Assembly: GCF_036178845.1 (NCBI RefSeq)
Contig: NZ_CP108070.1
Location: 682,001 to 746,000 of the forward strand
Direction: 5' to 3'
DNA: 64,000 nt
Source of the DNA: Streptomyces sp. NBC_00271
GTDB taxonomy: Bacteria > Actinomycetota > Actinomycetes > Streptomycetales > Streptomycetaceae
In this document: in pieces, positions 11,119-30,320 of the stretch
Layout of the letters: each line of letters opens with the position of its first letter
How positions within the stretch are numbered: the stretch's first letter is position 1
Made by a program: the position numbers and the translations under genes
Notes under the pieces: model-generated
What the model saw: the letters and a program-made list of their open reading frames with translations, nothing else
The model's database searches: none
What the model was told of the DNA's origin: nothing

Positions 11119-11193
11119 ATGACCGTGCTCGTGACTCGCCGCCACGTCGACTACGTGCGTGTCACCACCACGGGTTGTTCCGCCGAGAGCTGA
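11119..11193 (+). CDS. RRHVD-type leader peptide upstream of metY (putative cysteine attenuator)
   Basis: A 24-codon ORF beginning ATG and containing RRHVDYVRVTTTGC before a TGA stop. Short peptides with an RRHVD core followed by a late Cys codon are a recurring class of leader peptides in Streptomyces, found before sulfur-assimilation genes and thought to act as cysteine-responsive attenuators. The peptide ends 142 bp before metY, leaving room for alternative RNA structures. No clear Shine-Dalgarno site precedes the ATG; translation from a leaderless transcript is possible (TTACCT ending 7 bp upstream could be a -10 element). The motif and position are seen; the regulatory role is inferred from family and context. 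Confidence 0.75.
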   Translation: MTVLVTRRHVDYVRVTTTGCSAES

Positions 11194-11335: not shown

Positions 11336-12697
11336 ATGAGCCAGCCCATCGACTCCGTCACCGCGGGTCACACCCCTGAGGACGAGCACGTCGGCCCCGA
11401 CACCTCGGCCTGGTCGTTCGAGACCAAGCAGATCCATGCCGGTGCCGTGCCGGACCCGACGACCGGGGCACGGGCGGTACCGATCTACCAGACCAGCTCG
11501 TTCGTCTTCCGCGACACCCAGCACGCCGCCGACCTGTTCGCGCTGGCCGAGCCCGGCAACATCTACACGCGCATCCACAACCCCACCCAGGACGTCTTCG
11601 AGCAGCGCGTCGCCGCGCTGGAAGGCGGAGTGGCCGCGGTGGCACTCGCCTCCGGTCAGGCCGCGGAAACGCTCGCCATCCTGACGCTGGCATCCGCCGG
11701 CGACCACCTCGTGTCCAGCACCTCCCTGTACGGCGGCACGTACAACCTCTTCCGCCACACCCTTCCCAAGTTCGGCATCGAGGTGTCGTTCGTCGACGAC
11801 CCGGACGACCTCGAGGCGTGGCGTGCCGCGATCCGACCGAACACGAAGGCCCTGTTCGCCGAGACACTCGGCAATCCGCGCGGCAACGTACTCGACGTAC
11901 GGGCGGTGGCGGACGTCGCGCACGAGGCGGGCGTTCCGCTGATCGTGGACAACACCGTGCCGACCCCGTTTCTGCTGCGGCCCATCGAGCACGGTGCCGA
12001 CATCGTCGTCCACTCCGCGACGAAGTTCCTCGGCGGCCATGGCACCACCATCGCCGGCGTCGTGGTCGACGGCGGCACCTTCGACTTCGGCGCGCACGCC
12101 GAGCGCTTCCCCGACTTCAGCGAACCGGACCCCAGCTACCACGGGCTGCGGTACTGGCCCGCGCTCGGCCCGGGCGCCTTCGCGATCAAGCTGCGGGTGC
12201 AGCTGTTGCGCGACATCGGTCCGGCCATCTCGCCGCACTCCGCCTTCCTGCTCCTGCAGGGCGTCGAGACGCTCAGTCTGCGCATCGAGCGGCACTCGGC
12301 CAACGCCCAGGCGCTGGCCGAGTGGCTGGAGCAGCGCGACGAGGTCGCCGCCGTCCATTATCCGGGACTCGAATCCAACCGGTGGTACGCGGCGGGGCAA
12401 CGCTACCTGCCGCGCGGCGCTGGGGCGGTGCTGGCCTTCGAGCTGCGGGACGGGGTCGAGGCCGGAAAGCGATTCGTGGACGCGGTCGAACTCTTCAGCC
12501 ACCTCGCCAACATCGGGGACGTACGCAGCCTCATCATCCATCCGGCGTCCACCACCCACAGCCAGCTGGACGAGGCGCAGTTGGCGGCGACCGGCACCTC
12601 ACCCGGACTGGTACGCCTGTCGGTCGGGATCGAGAACCTCGCCGACCTCAAGGCCGACCTGGAGGCCGGGTTCCGCGCGGCGAAGGGCGCGTCCTGA
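11336..12697 (+). CDS. metY: O-acetylhomoserine sulfhydrylase (MetY)
   Basis: A 453-residue PLP enzyme of the Cys/Met metabolism family. It joins O-acetylhomoserine and sulfide to give homocysteine, the direct-sulfhydrylation route to methionine. The PLP-binding lysine is Lys230 in [13 protein letters not shown]; other hallmarks are [40 protein letters not shown], the LYGGTYNLF loop and the [10 protein letters not shown] end. Start is the ATG at 11336 with GGGAGA 5 bp upstream. metX follows with overlapping stop/start codons, so substrate synthesis and use are coupled, and an RRHVD leader peptide precedes it. Confidence 0.95.
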
Positions 12698-14825: not shown

Positions 14826-14960
14826 GGCGGGGATGCTAACCCAGCGGTGCCCGCCGGGAGCGAGCCTGATCTGCGCGTTCTCGTTGGCTGGGCAAGATCG
14901 TCCCATATCGTGGAACTCGCTTGCACAGCATCGGCTGCCCGGGGTTATGGTTTCGGCCAT

Positions 14961-15080
14961 CTACGCGGGAGCCCCTACCCGGTTGGGCTGAGAGGGCGTC
15001 TGGGAGCGGTGTCGGCATCTGTCGGCCCGGTCCCCATGGGAACGCCGACCGCATCACTTGAGCCTCAGTGCCCGCGTAGG
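14961..15080 (+). promoter_or_regulatory. TPP riboswitch (THI element)
   Basis: A closing stem P1 forms between CTACGCGGG (14961-14969) and CCCGCGTAG (15071-15079). Inside lie the diagnostic CTGAGA (14988-14993) after a CCC...GGG stem, a variable stem-loop around 15000-15045, and a GACCGCATCACTTGAGCCT...GCCCGCGTAGG segment corresponding to the usual GACC..UGAACCUGA...GCGUAGG half. Bound thiamine pyrophosphate should lower expression of the downstream ThiY-type transport operon. The ACTTGAGCCT part departs somewhat from the usual AACCTGAT. Confidence 0.88.
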
Positions 15081-15275
15081 AGTACCGCATGTCTTCAGCA
15101 GTCGAGCAGCAGTGTCCCCCGGCGTCCGCCGCGGCGGCCCGCTCCTGTTGTTGACCCGCCCGGTCTCCCCCCTCCCCTTTCTCCTTCCTTTTCGCACCAG
15201 GCAGCCAGGCCACGGGCCCGCACACCTGAGTGCGGTCCGCATTCTGCCGTCTGCCGTCCACGGAGCCGTCTGCCC

Positions 15276-16208
15276 ATGTCGCACGTCCGAGTCATGCTCG
15301 ACTACTTCCACCCCTGGCCGAATTCCGCCGGTTTGTACGTGGCCCGGGAGCGCGGCTGGTACCGCGAAGCGGGTCTGGACGTGGAACTCACCGTCCAGGA
15401 TCCGGGACGCGGCGACACTCTGGAGTACCTGGCCCGGGGCGAGGTGGACTTCGGCCTCTTCCCGCCCAACCGGCTGCTCGCCCGCCGCGCCGCCCCCGGC
15501 CGGCGGCTGCTCGCCGTGGCCGCCGTCAACCACCGCGCCCTGGAGGCGATCCAGACCGCCCGCCCCACCGGCATCACCCGCCCCCGCGACCTGGCCGGAC
15601 GCCGCCTCGCCTACAACCCCACCCCGCGTGGACGCGCCATGGTCCGGCACCTGGTCGCGGCCGACGGCGGCGATCCGGACGCCGTGATCACCGTCGACGC
15701 GGGCTACCGCGAGCTGACCGTGGACGACATAGCGGCCGGGGAGGCGGATGCCACCTTCGGCACCTACTGGTCCTGGGACGCCCTGCGCGGCGACCTTCCC
15801 GAAGAGCAGCGCCTGACCTGGCCGGTCGACGAGATCGGCGCCCCCCACTACCACAGCTACCTCCTCGGTACGAGCGAGAGCCTCGCCGACGCCCGCCCCG
15901 ACCTGGTACGCGCCTTCCTGGCCGCCACCGCCCGTGGCTACGCCTCCGCGGCGGCCGACCAGGTAGGCGCCCGCGCCCTGTTGGAACGGGTGATCCCCTA
16001 CTTCTCGCGCCCCCTGATCGCCCGTTCCCTCAGCCTGGTCGCCCCGACCTGGACCGACGCGAACGGAAACTGGGGTGTCATCGACGAGACCCGCATGGGC
16101 CCCTACGCCGACTGGCTCGCGCGGCACAAGGCCGTCCCGCACGCCCGCGACTGGCGGTCCTCGTACACGAACGACCTGCTGGCCACCGCCGCGGCAGGCG
16201 CCGAATGA
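15276..16208 (+). CDS. ThiY/NMT1 (THI5-like) domain protein without signal peptide
   Basis: This 310-residue protein is the first gene after the TPP riboswitch. It has the two-lobed NMT1/THI5-like fold (LDYFHPWPNSAGLYVARERG, GEVDFGLFPPNRLLARRA, DDIAAGEADATFGTYW) and a tryptophan-rich end. Unlike the neighbouring ThiY lipoprotein it begins MSHVRVMLDYF directly, with no signal peptide or lipobox, so it is probably cytosolic. No cysteine is visible, so the CCCFC motif of yeast THI5 HMP-phosphate synthase is absent. It may bind the imported pyrimidine inside the cell or act as an enzyme of unknown type. The start is set by the fold beginning almost at once. Confidence 0.85.
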   Translation: MSHVRVMLDYFHPWPNSAGLYVARERGWYREAGLDVELTVQDPGRGDTLEYLARGEVDFGLFPPNRLLARRAAPGRRLLAVAAVNHRALEAIQTARPTGITRPRDLAGRRLAYNPTPRGRAMVRHLVAADGGDPDAVITVDAGYRELTVDDIAAGEADATFGTYWSWDALRGDLPEEQRLTWPVDEIGAPHYHSYLLGTSESLADARPDLVRAFLAATARGYASAAADQVGARALLERVIPYFSRPLIARSLSLVAPTWTDANGNWGVIDETRMGPYADWLARHKAVPHARDWRSSYTNDLLATAAAGAE

Positions 16209-16336
16209 CCTGCCAGGCAAGGGAACTGACGAGACGTATGGCCATCGACCTCATGCGGGTCGACAGCGCGCTGTGTCGGGCGTGAAGAGCACTTCTCCAC
16301 GCCCCCAGCACCGCCGCGCCCATCCGAGGAAACCCC

Positions 16337-23081: not shown

Positions 23082-24122
23082 ATGAGTAACCGTCAGCCCG
23101 AGGCGCGCTTACAGGGCCTCTGGTCCGACCTGGTTCCGGTCGCCGTTCCGTCGGAAGCGCCCTCGGCCCCGCAGGGCAACGTGCTGGGGCGGATCCGTTT
23201 CACGGACGCCCCCACCGAGCCCGATCTCGTCGACGCCACTCCCCTTCTGACCACCCACATGACGAACGATCACGTCACTCCGGTCGAGGAGATCTGGCGA
23301 ACCGGCCGGCCCGTACGGGCCGGCGTCGCCGGAGACGCCGTCTTCGCCGAGGACGGCGAGCACCTCTTCTACGCGGTGCGCCTCGGCCCCCAGCCCGTGT
23401 ACCGCCGACCGGTACGCGAACTGTACGAGAACGCCCTGCGCTTCACCTGGGAGCGCGGCTACACCGACCTGGTCCGCATGTGGAACCTCATCGGCGGAAT
23501 CACCAGCCCGAACGCGGACGGCCTGGAGACCTACCGCGACTTCTGCATAGGCCGGGCGGAGGCGTTCGCCGCCTTCGCCGACCGCTTTCCCCAACTGTCG
23601 GCCGCCACCGGGATCGGCACGCTCAGCCCGGGCGTCGACGTCTGCTTCCTCGCGGCGAAGCCGGGTCGCGCCGTACACCTGGAGAATCCCCGGCAGACGC
23701 CCGCCTACAAGTACCCGTCCAGCTACGGGCCGAAGTCTCCGAGCTTCGCCCGGGCGACGTTCCTGAGGGACGTCGACGCGCCGGGCCGGGAGGCGGGGAG
23801 CCTCTTCGTCTCGGGCACGGCCAGCATCCTGGGCGACGACACGGTGCACGTGGACGACGTCGCGCGGCAGACCGAGGAGACACTCCGCAACATCGAGGCG
23901 CTCGTCGGCGGCGGCAACCTCCGGCGGCACGGCGTGGCGGGTGCCGGGTACGACGTCAAGGACCTCGACCAGGTCAAGGTCTACGTACGCGACGCCGAGC
24001 ACCTTCCCGTCGTACGGAGCATCTGCGCGTCGACGCTCCCCGGCGACACGGACATCTCGTACTTCAACGTCGCGGTCTGCCGGCCCGACCTGCTGGTGGA
24101 GATCGAGGGAGTGTGCAGGTGA
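23082..24122 (+). CDS. Chorismatase (FkbO/Hyg5 family)
   Basis: A 346-residue enzyme of the chorismatase family, which removes pyruvate from chorismate to give either a dihydroxycyclohexadiene carboxylate (FkbO/RapK type) or 3-/4-hydroxybenzoate (Hyg5/XanB2 type). Family landmarks are RMWNLIGGI, ENPRQTPAYKYPSSYGP, FARA, LFVSGTASILGDDTVH, RQTEETLRNIEALV, and the C-terminal CRPDLLVEIEGVC with the conserved glutamate. I cannot assign the product subtype by eye. ATG at 23082 with AAGGAG 7 bp upstream. Its stop overlaps the CoA-ligase start, so the product is very probably the ligase's substrate. Confidence 0.92.
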   Translation: MSNRQPEARLQGLWSDLVPVAVPSEAPSAPQGNVLGRIRFTDAPTEPDLVDATPLLTTHMTNDHVTPVEEIWRTGRPVRAGVAGDAVFAEDGEHLFYAVRLGPQPVYRRPVRELYENALRFTWERGYTDLVRMWNLIGGITSPNADGLETYRDFCIGRAEAFAAFADRFPQLSAATGIGTLSPGVDVCFLAAKPGRAVHLENPRQTPAYKYPSSYGPKSPSFARATFLRDVDAPGREAGSLFVSGTASILGDDTVHVDDVARQTEETLRNIEALVGGGNLRRHGVAGAGYDVKDLDQVKVYVRDAEHLPVVRSICASTLPGDTDISYFNVAVCRPDLLVEIEGVCR

Positions 24123-26844: not shown

Positions 26845-28245
26845 TCAGCCGGCCTGCCGCCGGTCAGTCGTGGAGCGGTGGGTGAGTGGTTCCCGCAGGC
26901 CCAGGTGCTCGCGCAGCGTCGTACCCGTGTACTCGGTGCGATAGACGCCGCGTTCCTGCAGTGCGGGGACGAGCAGGTCGACGATGTCGTCGAGGCCGTC
27001 GGGGATCAGATACGGCGTGACGTTGAAGCCGTCGACGGCGCCGTGCCGGACGAAGTGGGCGAACTTGTCCGCCAGCCCCGCCGGAGTGCCCACGTGGCCG
27101 CGCTGGGGACCGAGCGCGATGACGGTCTCGCGCAGCGACCACCGGTGTGCCTCGGCCTTCTCCCGCCACTCGGCGACCACCTTGCGCGGGTCGGTGATAC
27201 GCCGGGCGCCGAAGGAACCGTCGTTCTCGGCGACGACCGGGTCCTCCTTGGGCAGCGGACCGTCGGCGTCACGATCGGAGAGGTCCAGGCCCCACAGGAG
27301 TCCGGCGATGCCCAACGCGGTGGCCGGAGTGACCTGTTGGAGGCGGATCCAGCGCTTCTTCTCCAGGGCCTCCTCCTCCGTGGCCCCGATGATGATCTCC
27401 GTGCCCGGGAGGATGCGCAGGTCGTCGTCAGGCCGGCCCACGGCCCGCAGGCGGCGCCGGAGGTCGTCGGCGAAGGCGAGCGCGTCGTCGAAGTCGTTGC
27501 CGTGCGCGGAGAAGATGACGTCGGCGTTGCGGGCGGCGAAGTCCCGGCCCTCACCGGAGTCGCCGGCCTGGAAGATCACGGGGTGCCCCTGGGCGCTGCG
27601 CGGCAGCGTGGGCGCGAGGTCGACGTCGAACTGCGGCCCCCTGTGGCGGACTTGATGTACGGCGCCGGGTGCCGCCCAGGCGGGGGCGCCCGGGGAGCCG
27701 GAGACGGCCCCGTTCTCCCAGCCGTCCCAGAGCGCGCGGGCGACGGTGAGGAACTCCTCGGCGCGCCGGTAGCGGTCGGCGTGGTCGAGGTAGCCGCCGC
27801 GGCGGAAGTTGGCGCCGGTCCAGGCGTTGTCGGTCGTCACCACGTTCCAGCCGGCGCGGCCCTCCGAGAGCAGGTCGAGGCCGGACAGGCGGCGGGCGAG
27901 GTCGGCAGGCTCGTTGAAGGTGGTGTTGGAGGTGCTGACCAGGCCGATCCGGTCGGTGACGGCGGCCAGTGCGGCGAGCTGGGTGATGGCGTCCGGCCGT
28001 CCGGTGATGTCGAGGTCGTGGATCTGTCCGTCGACCTCGCGCAGCCGCAGCCCCTCCCCCAGGAAGAACGCGTCGAACAGGCCCCGTTCGGCGGTCTGGG
28101 CGACGCGCCGAAAGTTGGCAGGGTCGATCTGGGAGCCGCTGGCCGGGTCGGACCAGATGGTCCAGTGGTTGACGCCCTGGAAGAAGACACCGAAGTGGAG
28201 CTGTGCGTCCGGGCGGGGTACGTCGAGGGGGTCGGTGCGGGTCAT
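26845..28245 (-). CDS. LLM-class FMN-dependent monooxygenase (NtaA/SnaA/DszA type)
   Basis: A 466-residue flavin-dependent monooxygenase of the bacterial luciferase fold. Typical segments: HFGVFFQGVNHWTIWSDPASGSQID, FDAFFLGEGL, RIGLVSTSNTTFNEPADLARRLSGLDLLSEGRAGWNVVTT, HPVIFQAGDSGEGRDFAARNADVIFS and a C-terminal ...VPALQERGVYRTEYTGTTLREHLGL. Enzymes of this group use reduced FMN and O2 to cleave chelators, sulfones or other C-S or C-N bonds. It is the second gene of a pair (ATGA overlap), behind an RRHVD leader peptide. That makes organosulfur breakdown under sulfur limitation the likeliest role. Confidence 0.9.
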   Translation of the reverse strand: MTRTDPLDVPRPDAQLHFGVFFQGVNHWTIWSDPASGSQIDPANFRRVAQTAERGLFDAFFLGEGLRLREVDGQIHDLDITGRPDAITQLAALAAVTDRIGLVSTSNTTFNEPADLARRLSGLDLLSEGRAGWNVVTTDNAWTGANFRRGGYLDHADRYRRAEEFLTVARALWDGWENGAVSGSPGAPAWAAPGAVHQVRHRGPQFDVDLAPTLPRSAQGHPVIFQAGDSGEGRDFAARNADVIFSAHGNDFDDALAFADDLRRRLRAVGRPDDDLRILPGTEIIIGATEEEALEKKRWIRLQQVTPATALGIAGLLWGLDLSDRDADGPLPKEDPVVAENDGSFGARRITDPRKVVAEWREKAEAHRWSLRETVIALGPQRGHVGTPAGLADKFAHFVRHGAVDGFNVTPYLIPDGLDDIVDLLVPALQERGVYRTEYTGTTLREHLGLREPLTHRSTTDRRQAG

Positions 28246-29351
28246 CGGGTCTCCTCAAGGGCCTCGAACGCCGCACCGGCGGCGTAGCGGTTGGCGGGCC
28301 GTTCGAGGCCCAAGTGGATGCGTAGGGACGCGCCGGGCAGCGGGCGGACGGCGTGCCGCCGCTCGAAGAGGTGGGGCAGGACGAGCCGGGACAGCTCCGG
28401 CAGGTCCTCGTCCAGCACCAGCGGGTGCAGGCGTACGCCGTCCACGATGCCTCTCAACTGCTCCAGCAGGGTGGCGAGTCCGGCGGCGGATCCGATGTGG
28501 CGCAGCCGTCCGCCGGTGGTCCAGGGCGCATGCCGCTCGAGGTCGGCGACGCGCTCCTCGGCCGTGGCGTCCACGCTGTCGAGGGCGACCTCGACCTCGG
28601 CGAAGGTGCGCGGTGTTCCGGCGGCAGCCGCGGCCGCGGTCACCGCGGCGATGTCGCGGCCCTCGACGAGGGCGACGTCGAGTTGTTCGGCGGGCACGAG
28701 ATCGGGCCGGCCGAGGACGACGAGTTGGCCCTGGGGCGGACGAGGGACGATCGCCGGGCCCTTCACGGCGTAGGTGTCGCCGGTGAAGTCGACGTAGTGG
28801 AGCCGGTCGCGGTCGAGGTAGCGGCTGGTGGCCACGGAGCGGATGACCGCGTCGTCCTCCCAGGAGTCCCACAGGGCGCGGACGACCTCGATGCCGTCGC
28901 GGGACTCGCGGGCGCGGGCGGCGGCGCCGTCGACGAGGGGGCGGTCCCAGGCGCGGGCCGCCTCAGGACGTGCCTCCTCGCTCACCACCCACCCGGCACG
29001 CCCGATCGAGATGTGGTCCAGGGACGCCAACTGGCTGGAGACGTGGAACGGTTCGGCATAGGTGACCGGAACGACCGGCGCGATGCCGATGACACTCGTC
29101 GACGCGGCGAGGAACGCGGCCCGCTCCACCGCACCGATGCGGCCGACCGCGTCGGGCGTGGCGCCGGGCGGGAGTGCGCCGTCCTCCAGGGTGAGCAGGG
29201 TGAACCCGGCGTTCTCCGCGGCGGCGGCGACGCGCGCCACGCGGCGTGGGGTCAGCAGGTGGTCGGGTGAGTGGGCGGCGCGGCGCCAGGCCGCGGGGTG
29301 AGCGCCGTCACCGTCGAGTTCGACGGCGAGCCGCAGGGCAGGGCCGGACAT
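28242..29351 (-). CDS. LLM-class FMN-dependent monooxygenase
   Basis: A 369-residue relative of the downstream LLM enzyme, shorter and more divergent. RVARVAAAAENAGFTLLTLEDGAL, RAAFLAASTSVIGIAPVVPV, EPFHVSSQLASLDHISIGRAGWVVS and a C-terminal VLPHLFERRHAVRPLPGASLRIHLGLERP place it in the luciferase-like fold. The pair may oxidise one substrate in sequence. The reduced flavin must come from elsewhere, since no flavin reductase lies in this operon. The start ATG at 29351 lies 52 bp after the leader peptide's stop codon. Confidence 0.88.
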   Translation of the reverse strand: MSGPALRLAVELDGDGAHPAAWRRAAHSPDHLLTPRRVARVAAAAENAGFTLLTLEDGALPPGATPDAVGRIGAVERAAFLAASTSVIGIAPVVPVTYAEPFHVSSQLASLDHISIGRAGWVVSEEARPEAARAWDRPLVDGAAARARESRDGIEVVRALWDSWEDDAVIRSVATSRYLDRDRLHYVDFTGDTYAVKGPAIVPRPPQGQLVVLGRPDLVPAEQLDVALVEGRDIAAVTAAAAAAGTPRTFAEVEVALDSVDATAEERVADLERHAPWTTGGRLRHIGSAAGLATLLEQLRGIVDGVRLHPLVLDEDLPELSRLVLPHLFERRHAVRPLPGASLRIHLGLERPANRYAAGAAFEALEETR

Positions 29352-29382
29352 GGGGTTCCTTCCGAGGGCACGACAAGACGGC

Positions 29383-29397
29383 CGGCCCGACGGGCCG
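29383..29397 (-). terminator. Hairpin between leader peptide and LLM genes (possible attenuator)
   Basis: CGGCCC-GTC-GGGCCG on the transcribed strand, a 6-bp perfect stem with a 3-nt loop, starting 6 nt after the leader stop codon. It could be the terminator-like half of an attenuator; no antiterminator was modelled. Confidence 0.45.
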
Positions 29398-29403
29398 ACG
29401 GGG

Positions 29404-29520
29404 TCAAGGGCGTGCGGAAGGACAGACGGCGGAGGCGGTGCGGCAGTAGTCGACGTGCCGCCGGATGATCAGCCGCGTCCCCGTGCCGGCACCGTGTGGT
29501 GCGGCGCCACGTACGCGCAT
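29404..29520 (-). CDS. RRHVD-type leader peptide upstream of the LLM monooxygenases (putative cysteine attenuator)
   Basis: A 38-codon minus-strand ORF with an ATG at 29520, GGAGG 7 nt upstream, and a C-terminal half RRHVDYCRTASAVCPSARP. The RRHVD core followed by spaced Cys codons (two here) matches the cysteine leader-peptide class of Streptomyces and the copy before metY (RRHVDYVRVTTTGC). When cysteine is scarce, ribosome stalling at the Cys codons would change folding of the downstream RNA and allow expression of the monooxygenases. The motif, ribosome site and position are seen; the mechanism is inferred. Confidence 0.82.
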   Translation of the reverse strand: MRVRGAAPHGAGTGTRLIIRRHVDYCRTASAVCPSARP

Positions 29521-29553
29521 CGGGGCCTCCACCCGTCCGGGAGCGATCGCTTC

Positions 29554-29584
29554 AACCTACGTCGTCGCCCCCGGAAGGTGTCAA
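29554..29584 (-). promoter_or_regulatory. Candidate promoter of the leader/LLM operon
   Basis: On the minus strand TTGACA (29584-29579), a 19-bp spacer, and TAGGTT (29559-29554), ending 33 bp upstream of the leader ATG. Spacing is slightly longer than the usual 17-18 bp. Confidence 0.5.
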
Positions 29585-30320
29585 GAACATTAGATGTACG
29601 CGCATACAGCAGCACCACGGTCGGCAGACCGGCTCGCCGGCTCCTCGCCCTGGACACCATCCAGCATGCCGAACTGTCCCCAGCGCTTTGGACGATGCAT
29701 GCGTGCGGCGTGGACGCTCCTCTCCGGCACACGGCTGGGCGCACTGGACGGCTGGGGGTACGGAAGCGGCGCGGAGGAGCAGTGCGGAGCACCGACGGCC
29801 ACGTTTGTGCCGTTTGTTCTTCCACGCTCCTCTTGCGACCGTCCGGAGCAAGGCGCCGTCCACCCGACGCGTTTGCGAAGGAGTGAAGCGCGGGAGGGCG
29901 GACGTACGCCGAGTAGGGCAGGCCGGGACGGGCTGTGGATGATGCCCGTCGCAACGGGAACAGCCCTGCCTCGCCCATGTCTTTGGTGGCGGGCGCTCGT
30001 GGCTGCGGGCGCAAGGAGTCTTCACCGAGAGACGTCAACTCCCCCAAGGTTCGGCCCGGCTCCCGGCTGGTCGGGCGAAGGGAGCAGGTCTGCATCCTCG
30101 ACTGCGCGGACCCGCGCGTGAGGGCCTGTTGTGACTGACCGCCAGACATGCCAGACCCGCCGGGGGTCCGGGGCCGCTCGCCGGTCCAGGGAGGCGTGAC
30201 CACTCGCCGGCCTCGGGATCACGACACTCAGAGCACCCGGCTGTGAACTTCGCGCTCAGAAAGTTCTGTTGGCCTCGTTGACATGCCGCAAGCACTCGCG
30301 TTTCACTCAACACTCGTGCA
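29585..30320. other. Long intergenic region, no gene recognised
   Basis: About 735 bp between the LLM operon promoter and the GH92 operator. Open frames exist on both strands but are the unconstrained frames expected of GC-rich DNA, with Arg/Pro/Ser-rich translations and no motif or ribosome site. I see no tRNA, transposase remnant or repeat array. Confidence 0.5.

Follow-up and report, generated by a model that had tools for sequence, protein, structure and literature searches.

A putative cysteine-responsive leader peptide with a conserved UGU codon precedes a luciferase-like monooxygenase operon in Streptomyces

The 64,000-nt stretch of Streptomyces DNA analysed here (the window) carries two adjacent genes encoding luciferase-like monooxygenases, LLM1 and LLM2, preceded by a short ORF that the original prediction regarded as an unannotated cysteine leader peptide. 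Is this ORF genuine, and how might it act on the genes behind it? The ORF occupies 29404..29520, has 38 codons followed by TGA, and ends 52 nt ahead of the ATG of LLM1 (29351); its coordinates are as predicted. Its strand, left unstated in the prediction, is the minus strand, on which 29520-29404 reads MRVRGAAPHGAGTGTRLIIRRHVDYCRTASAVCPSARP followed by the stop; the plus strand of the same interval translates into unrelated residues. The predicted ATG and the Shine-Dalgarno (SD) sequence GGAGG (29526..29530, minus strand) were both found, and GGAGG was also seen by inspection ahead of the leader start in the orthologues, except that it is not visible for L027. The candidate promoter was also located on the minus strand, as a -35-like TTGACA (29579..29584) followed after 19 nt by a -10-like TAGGTT (29554..29559). 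This promoter-like TTGACA-N19-TAGGTT (29584-29554) can be compared with the -10 TAnnnT and -35 nTGACn given for S. lividans TK24 (PMC8079986). TTGACA was present in 27 of 29 orthologue upstream windows; L022 has CTGGCA, and the L027 window ends too far downstream to show the site. A TAnnnT-like hexamer was seen by inspection in the same region of most orthologues (AAGGTT in L013). A consensus scan of 29300-29700 reported no promoter because it allowed spacers of 16-18 nt only. The same scan found no GC hairpin followed by a U run in this interval, and the leader thus lacks the mark of a classical terminator attenuator. No Rfam family matched at gathering scores anywhere in the window. A TPP riboswitch suspected by eye at 14940-15100 (plus strand), before a probable transporter gene, was rejected, as the Rfam search of 14850-15300 was matchless at E up to 1.

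LLM1 (28242..29351, minus strand; 369 aa) scored 154.8 bits against TIGR03860, below the cut-off of 279.7, and is a short relative of the NtaA/DmoA family outside the model's membership. LLM2 (26845..28245, minus strand; 466 aa) scored 386.7 bits and is an NtaA/DmoA-family FMN monooxygenase by the same cut-off. The LLM2 start overlaps the LLM1 stop, and homologues of the two genes were adjacent in all 40 loci examined.

Conservation was assessed at loci picked by LLM homology, without using the leader. A search for LLM1 (E up to 1e-30) gave matches in 203 of 295 genomes of the genus, mostly to a more distant paralogue, and the 30 best loci were examined. Twenty-nine of them hold LLM1 orthologues of at least 68% identity (L037 over part of the protein only), and all 29 encode RRH[VA]D[YFL]C[RL]T.SA[VIA]C at the same position, the leader stop lying 52-226 nt ahead of the start of the LLM1 match. 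The motif was absent from the 30th locus (L038, 52% identity). In the window the conserved motif is RRHVDYCRTASAVC (29422..29463, minus strand). Its residues are kept despite synonymous changes: the first Arg is encoded by four codons, His by two, Ser by two and Ala by three among the 29 orthologues. The Asp (GAC) and Thr (ACC) codons never vary, so an additional constraint on the RNA is possible there. The N-terminal part of the leader diverges, apart from a Leu-[Ile/Val] just before the motif. On this evidence from sequence comparison, the leader ORF at 29520-29404 is genuine and not a chance ORF. Loss of the peptide or of its position, the outcome named in the original prediction as speaking against it, did not occur among the 29 genus orthologues.

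The paralogous LLM pair has a related leader (x-R-P/A/V-H-I-D-L-x-R-V...L-C) in 16 of 20 loci, hand-chosen from among the matches listed; at the other four (L089, L093, L099 and L106) no leader was found within 560 nt. At one locus (L088, genome G117), the LLM1 homology falls into two pieces and the LLM2 match covers residues 1-240 only; the LLM2 homologue looks interrupted there although the leader is retained. Outside the genus set, the expectation that RRHVD-type ORFs stand upstream of LLM genes held less widely, with the strict motif found upstream in only 23 of the best 80 named-genome LLM1 relatives, as against 29 of 30 genus loci. These 23 comprise 18 Streptomyces, two Saccharopolyspora, and one each of Kitasatospora, Protofrankia and an actinobacterium; the Protofrankia leader lies 437 nt away and is doubtful. 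Five Streptomyces loci among the 80 lacked the strict motif, one of which (L241) has a degenerate motif with TGT. No leader was found in the Rhodococcus, Nocardia, Arthrobacter and Mycobacterium relatives among the 80, nor within 1000 nt at L216 (a contig labelled Melainabacteria; 72% identity over residues 1-257). This distribution indicates that the leader is an addition to the LLM operon mainly in Streptomyces and close kin. In three named Streptomyces (L230, L239 and L242), leaderless LLM pairs closely trail an ORF resembling, by eye, the binding protein of a transporter, so the pair may be part of a longer operon there.

The leader could be related to a known family by profile searches. 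Residues 17-33 of the window peptide align to positions 3-19 of the 19-position NCBIfam model NF042934 (cis_reg_atten, 'putative leader peptide'), with Cys at the end. The resemblance lies in the C-terminal motif of R-R-x-V-D-x-x-R...C type, the short tail and the siting before sulfur genes, whereas the score of 24.8 bits falls under the cut-off of 27. Three of ten orthologue leaders submitted passed the cut-off. The window leader thus belongs to this broad motif family on the strength of its alignment, although it misses the curated cut-off. Because it and seven of the ten orthologue leaders score just under the cut-off or lower, such leaders can escape annotation based on the model. The mycobacterial Cys leader models Ms5788A and Ms4527A match the window leader more weakly than NF042934 does (Ms5788A: 16 bits, cut-off 45). 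At E up to 0.01, NF042934 matched in 116 of 148 genomes of the class (63 of 81 genera), in 101 of 101 genus genomes and in none of 14 control genomes; it exceeded its cut-off in 96 of the 148. At E up to 10 it rang in 10 of the 14 controls, never over the cut-off.

Within the same genome, the search at E up to 10 gave 31 matches, of which the best 15 were studied (eight over the cut-off) and the 16 weaker ones ignored. Fourteen were accepted as leaders, and one (L044), which ends in SSAY and has no Cys, was excluded. Eight of the 14 precede a gene whose best family match is a sulfur gene, in agreement with the predicted link between motif and sulfur genes. Four of these targets exceed curated cut-offs, namely cysteine dioxygenase (Pfam CDO_I), cysteine synthase (behind a short ORF), SfnG and MetY; four remain under them (NirA/sulfite-reductase-like, SsuC-like, sulfurtransferase-like and SsuA-like). 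Three leaders precede LLM or flavin partners (both LLM pairs and a flavin reductase), and three precede genes without an evident sulfur role, encoding a 2OG-Fe(II) oxygenase, a ribose-type binding protein (Peripla_BP_4) and a ROK protein. The leaders before the last two (L050 and L053) carry UGU and score under the NF042934 cut-off; given these targets, the family may reach beyond sulfur genes. The LLM pair would thereby join SfnG, Ssu-like, MetY and sulfite-reductase-like genes as part of a single sulfur regulon, probably read by ribosomes, in a Streptomyces-type genome.

Three of the 14 leaders are in the window: besides that of LLM1-LLM2, MTVLVTRRHVDYVRVTTTGCSAES (11119..11193, plus strand; 17.5 bits, below the cut-off) precedes metY, and MTCQARELTRRMAIDLMRVDSALCRA (16205..16285, plus strand; 22 bits, cut-off 27) precedes an SsuA-like ABC transporter operon. 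metY starts at 11336, 142 nt past its leader, and the spacer is very C-rich. The leader at 16205-16285 overlaps the end of the preceding ORF and is followed by an SsuA/NMT1-like binding protein gene and apparent ABC transporter genes. The excluded L044 (9529967-9530011, minus strand) is a motif-like ORF ending in TRRLHIDLQRVSSAY without Cys; it lies 4.4 kb from the leader of the paralogous LLM pair, the next ORF was unmatched in two libraries at the thresholds used, and it is possibly a decayed leader. Class-wide, sulfur genes were again found as targets. The first ORFs after 69 leaders, picked mechanically and perhaps wrongly in places, encode rhodanese (18), DUF4395 (13), NIR_SIR sulfite/nitrite reductase (9), LLM (4) and PAPS reductase (4) proteins, the remaining families being singles or pairs and some not sulfur families. 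Forty class loci had been chosen by hand from the NF042934 matches of the class search for family diversity, their DNA unseen at the choice.

How the leader could act on LLM1 was addressed by RNA folding. The small hairpin placed between leader and LLM1 in the original prediction is present (CGGCCC-GTC-GGGCCG, 29383..29397, minus strand, by inspection; 6 bp with a 3-nt loop), but the best-supported structure is a long-range pairing of the leader end with the LLM1 SD, within which the hairpin (29397-29383) can nest. The anti-SD UCCUUCCG (29415..29422, minus strand) lies inside the leader ORF, its first base being the last of the second Cys codon, and complements the ribosome-binding site of LLM1, being the exact complement of 29364-29357; in the window, TCCTTCCG is the exact complement of CGGAAGGA, the LLM1 SD region (29357..29364, minus strand). 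GGAAGG occurs near the LLM1 start in every one of the 29 orthologues. In most of them, TGTCCTTCC makes up the second Cys codon and the two that follow, and CCT comes directly after TGT in 25 of 29; among Pro codons in long ORFs at these loci, CCT accounts for 50 of 983.

Partition-function folding was used to obtain the probability of pairing between the SD and a 15-nt segment starting at UGU. In 19 of 29 orthologues this probability reached at least 0.9, with the partners 58-124 nt apart, and for the window sequence (L009) it was 1.00. On refolding, at least 0.9 was reached by 11 of 15 natural orthologues but by only one of 225 shuffles; among synonymous variants, of which 24-32 were tried, 3-16% matched the natural sequence in pairing. 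The shuffle test covered 15 of the 29 orthologues and used the synonymous codons of Ser and Thr in part. Ranked by duplex energy among the windows of the same RNA, the leader end came within the top 5% in 15 of 29 orthologues. In L027, a leader CCCTCC faces an SD GGAAGGG, which by inspection amounts to one compensating pair. Ten orthologues fell below 0.5, seven of them to 0.05 or less, and all four with more than 130 nt from UGU to the SD are among the ten; given these values, the output step may be different in the low-pairing orthologues. The value also varies with the folded flank (0.05 or 0.70 for L031).

When a ribosome was modelled as a block at UGU, mean SD openness rose from 0.12 to 0.30, whereas a block at the first Cys codon left it unchanged (0.12). 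For the window sequence, stalling raised the openness of the SD core from 0.12 to 0.27 (0.03 to 0.49 in another set-up), with no gain over a wider ribosome-binding-site window (0.41 to 0.39). As expected of a translation attenuator, the SD-complementary segment lies inside the footprint that a ribosome stalled at UGU would have (UCCUUCCG with CGGAAGGA). Two other leaders of the same genome, those of SfnG and cysteine dioxygenase, also show predicted pairing of the leader end with the ribosome-binding site of their own gene (0.83 and 0.71). SD masking as a rule for the whole family was rejected: for 12 other leaders of this genome, 64 of 200 permutations were equally good, and since the pairing with their own ribosome-binding sites is no better than with others, masking is not the general output of the family. 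For the paralogous pair the permutation test was weak (10 of 200; 11 loci scored, five more missed by the SD pattern). For the 29 orthologues it gave 59 of 200 and is uninformative because their SD is common to all; the position test (15 of 29) bears on them instead.

Taken together, the leader is probably a cysteine-responsive, ribosome-mediated attenuator of the LLM1-LLM2 operon, a model held with good confidence. It builds directly on the ORF, its conservation, the codon bias, the complementarity and the predicted pairing; from these we infer that the ribosome stalls, that cysteine is the signal and which way the response runs. The leader would be translated from its own SD. With ample Cys-tRNA, the ribosome would clear the motif-final UGU, terminate six codons on and depart; the freed UCCUUCCG could then pair with CGGAAGGA, and LLM1 would be poorly translated, as would LLM2 if coupled to it by the overlapping stop and start. 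With scarce Cys-tRNA, the ribosome would wait at UGU and mask the anti-SD, and the LLM1 site would stay open. The model is supported by the recurrence of the leader at LLM1-homology (29/30) and paralogue (16/20) loci, the NF042934 match together with the sulfur genes behind 8 of 14 leaders, the strong SD pairing in 19 of 29 orthologues, the CCT bias, the opening of the SD at UGU, and the reported cysteine response of mycobacterial leaders of like type. Against it stand the weak pairing in 10 of 29 orthologues, the missing gain over the wider window, the three targets without evident sulfur role and the leaderless relative L216, as well as differences from the tested mycobacterial cases, to which we now turn.

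In mycobacteria and others, cys operons were predicted to be preceded by leaders with Cys codons (PMC1262725), some mycobacterial ones were seen by ribosome profiling (PMC4633059), and cysteine-responsive leaders are reported there (PMC9031893, PMC13236596, PMC4633059). Mycobacterial short ORFs were described as cysteine-responsive attenuators by Canestrari et al. (2020), with translation attenuation reported, according to papers that cite this work. The window leader shares with the Ms5788A and Ms4527A short ORFs the Cys codons at the ORF end and the position upstream of sulfur genes, but those leaders are described as leaderless and poly-Cys, whereas the window leader has two separated Cys codons and no poly-Cys run of the Ms5788A type. 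The GGAGG before its ATG and the -10 ending about 33 nt upstream both argue against a leaderless mRNA. By analogy, we propose a cysteine leader that resembles the known mycobacterial type in mode. Among the class leaders, family f4 (L109, L111 and L112) combines an RRAVDLCR motif with a Cys run, and our guess is that f4 is the mycobacterial leader family. In Rhodobacterales, the uORFC-8-2 motif before cysS contains a Cys-codon uORF for which ribosome-mediated attenuation was likewise proposed (PMC8632094); it is described with tandem Cys codons, UGC dominant, and an intrinsic terminator, unlike the window leader, where UGU is final and a terminator is unreported. The S. lividans reannotation counts, in its account of leader peptides, eight of them and none for cysteine (PMC8079986).

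The motif-final Cys codon (29422..29424, minus strand), the proposed sensor codon, is TGT in 29 of 29 orthologues and in 157 of 157 distinct leaders across all sets. The 157 (class 64, LLM orthologues 25, genus 21, named-genome LLM loci 20, own genome 14, paralogues 13) remained from 181 leaders after 24 identical 42-mers were dropped; doubtful members are included, for example L279, whose leader lies 437 nt from LLM1, and L053 (17 bits). Other Cys codons within the motif are TGT in 12 of 113 cases (TGC 101), those behind it in 20 of 55 (TGC 35), and the TGT share in genes is 17-33% (200/1178 in long ORFs, 64/373, 32/148, and 15/46 in the small set of orthologue loci). A codon-blind six-frame scan of all loci for Arg-Cys spacing gave a TGT:TGC ratio of 164:2 for five residues from Arg to Cys with a stop within 10 codons, 12:26 for the same spacing without a near stop, and 46:87 for seven other spacings pooled. 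None of the 157 leaders has a codon starting with G after UGU, whereas such codons follow 484 of the 1178 Cys codons in long ORFs; in 132 leaders the codon after UGU encodes Arg, Pro or Cys. No invariant RNA partner for UGUC was found: GACA was not enriched downstream (51, the same as GAAC). Upstream, GACA was the commonest of 12 permutations (70, the next 56), which may be explained by the -35 TTGACA. The UGU rule would reflect a decoding constraint, with the signal read at a single codon whose distance from a conserved nascent peptide is fixed. Neither Streptomyces cysteine leaders nor a UGU rule turned up in our literature search, confined to open-licence papers.

An invariant UGU next to a fixed non-Cys motif suggests that the nascent peptide participates. 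RRxVDLxR in the exit tunnel could pause the ribosome with UGU in or next to the A site, as a hybrid of starvation attenuator and arrest peptide; this reading is compatible with the output proposed above. The fixed register, the near-exclusive TGT only at the family spacing near a stop, the missing G-initial codons after UGU, and the retention of Arg, His, Asp, Ser and Ala, although the first Arg, His, Ser and Ala vary in their codons, all point in this direction. Yet the motif searches themselves favour conserved residues, the invariant GAC and ACC are open to a constraint on the RNA, and UGU could reflect a pure decoding-speed effect without the nascent peptide, so we regard arrest as possible but somewhat doubtful. 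We would extend it to the class with the same reserve: actinomycete cysteine sensors might read one fixed UGU, nine codons after the Asp of RRxVDLxR, with nascent peptide and slow wobble codon jointly setting the pause, and with outputs that differ by gene (SD masking for LLM, perhaps Rho elsewhere). If true, these sensors would combine amino-acid attenuation with peptide-induced arrest. The near-invariant UGU predicts altered regulation from one synonymous change, UGU to UGC; if this change alters regulation, leader sensitivity can be set by codon identity together with nascent-chain context.

The same sensor could instead act through Rho-dependent termination, the ribosome at UGU shielding a C-rich, G-poor stretch and its departure letting Rho stop transcription before LLM1; E. 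coli tnaC is an example of such an output. Measured in the 121 leaders (of 157) whose flanks were long enough, the excess of C over G was +0.171 in the 60 nt behind the leader stop but 0.004 upstream of the leader, it was larger behind the stop in 107 of 121, and it was only 0.060 behind 393 long ORFs. The position of UGU 2-5 codons ahead of the stop in 138 of 157 leaders also counts for this mechanism, which was proposed for mycobacterial cys leaders in PMC1262725, where its own authors called it rather weak. The window spacer, however, is short (52 nt) and holds a GC hairpin, and termination by Rho leaves the anti-SD complementarity of the LLM leaders unexplained. We therefore consider it unlikely at LLM1, while a Rho-type output is possible for other leaders because the post-leader region of the family is C-rich and G-poor.

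Alternatively, the leader might respond to tRNA-Cys modification, redox state or some other influence that slows the reading of UGU, and not to the charging of Cys-tRNA. UGU is a wobble codon if the tRNA-Cys anticodon is GCA, and its near-exclusive use could tie decoding to tRNA modification. As mycobacterial relatives are reported to respond to cysteine limitation and sulfur genes are the commonest targets, this appears improbable. A small protein acting in trans, placed before the LLM genes incidentally, would agree with a motif conserved at the peptide level, but its N-terminal half diverges, many different targets each have their own leader, and the UGU and CCT constraints operate on RNA or decoding, which makes this very improbable. 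Although spurious ORFs, short and long, are frequent in GC-rich DNA, a chance ORF is refuted by the motif and position kept in 29 of 30 loci with TGT in 29 of 29, and its probability is practically negligible.

With attenuation by cysteine as the preferred reading, the leader also provides a regulatory and metabolic clue for LLM1 and LLM2. The best PDB relatives of LLM2 are YtnJ/MoxC (244.5 bits), nitrilotriacetate (NTA) monooxygenase (232) and DszA (213.7); YtnJ, the closest, we take to be CmoJ. LLM1 matches to solved structures span only about the first 240 of its 369 residues. The paralogous operon of the same genome adds another LLM and then an MsnO8-family LLM (310.1 bits, cut-off 166.95). 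As judged from these family matches, LLM1 and LLM2 probably recover sulfur from organosulfur compounds, and such a salvage role fits a cysteine leader. A CmoJ-like route, in which cysteine would be freed from S-alkylcysteines, is a more specific guess, based on YtnJ as the closest solved relative and on the MsnO8-family LLM of the paralogous operon; close scores to other members of the LLM2 family make this substrate assignment tentative. In Bacillus subtilis, CmoO and CmoJ release cysteine from S-alkylcysteines (PMC10863075). The expected product, cysteine, and the proximity of LLM2 to YtnJ agree with this salvage pathway, whereas the two-gene LLM operon shows no acetyltransferase or deacetylase. 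On the opposite strand, an FkbO/Hyg5-family chorismatase gene (23085-24119, plus strand; 392.6 bits, cut-off 325) adjoins the LLM operon, and its neighbours are an ORF that is acyl-CoA ligase-like by eye and a weakly matched drug/metabolite-type transporter gene.
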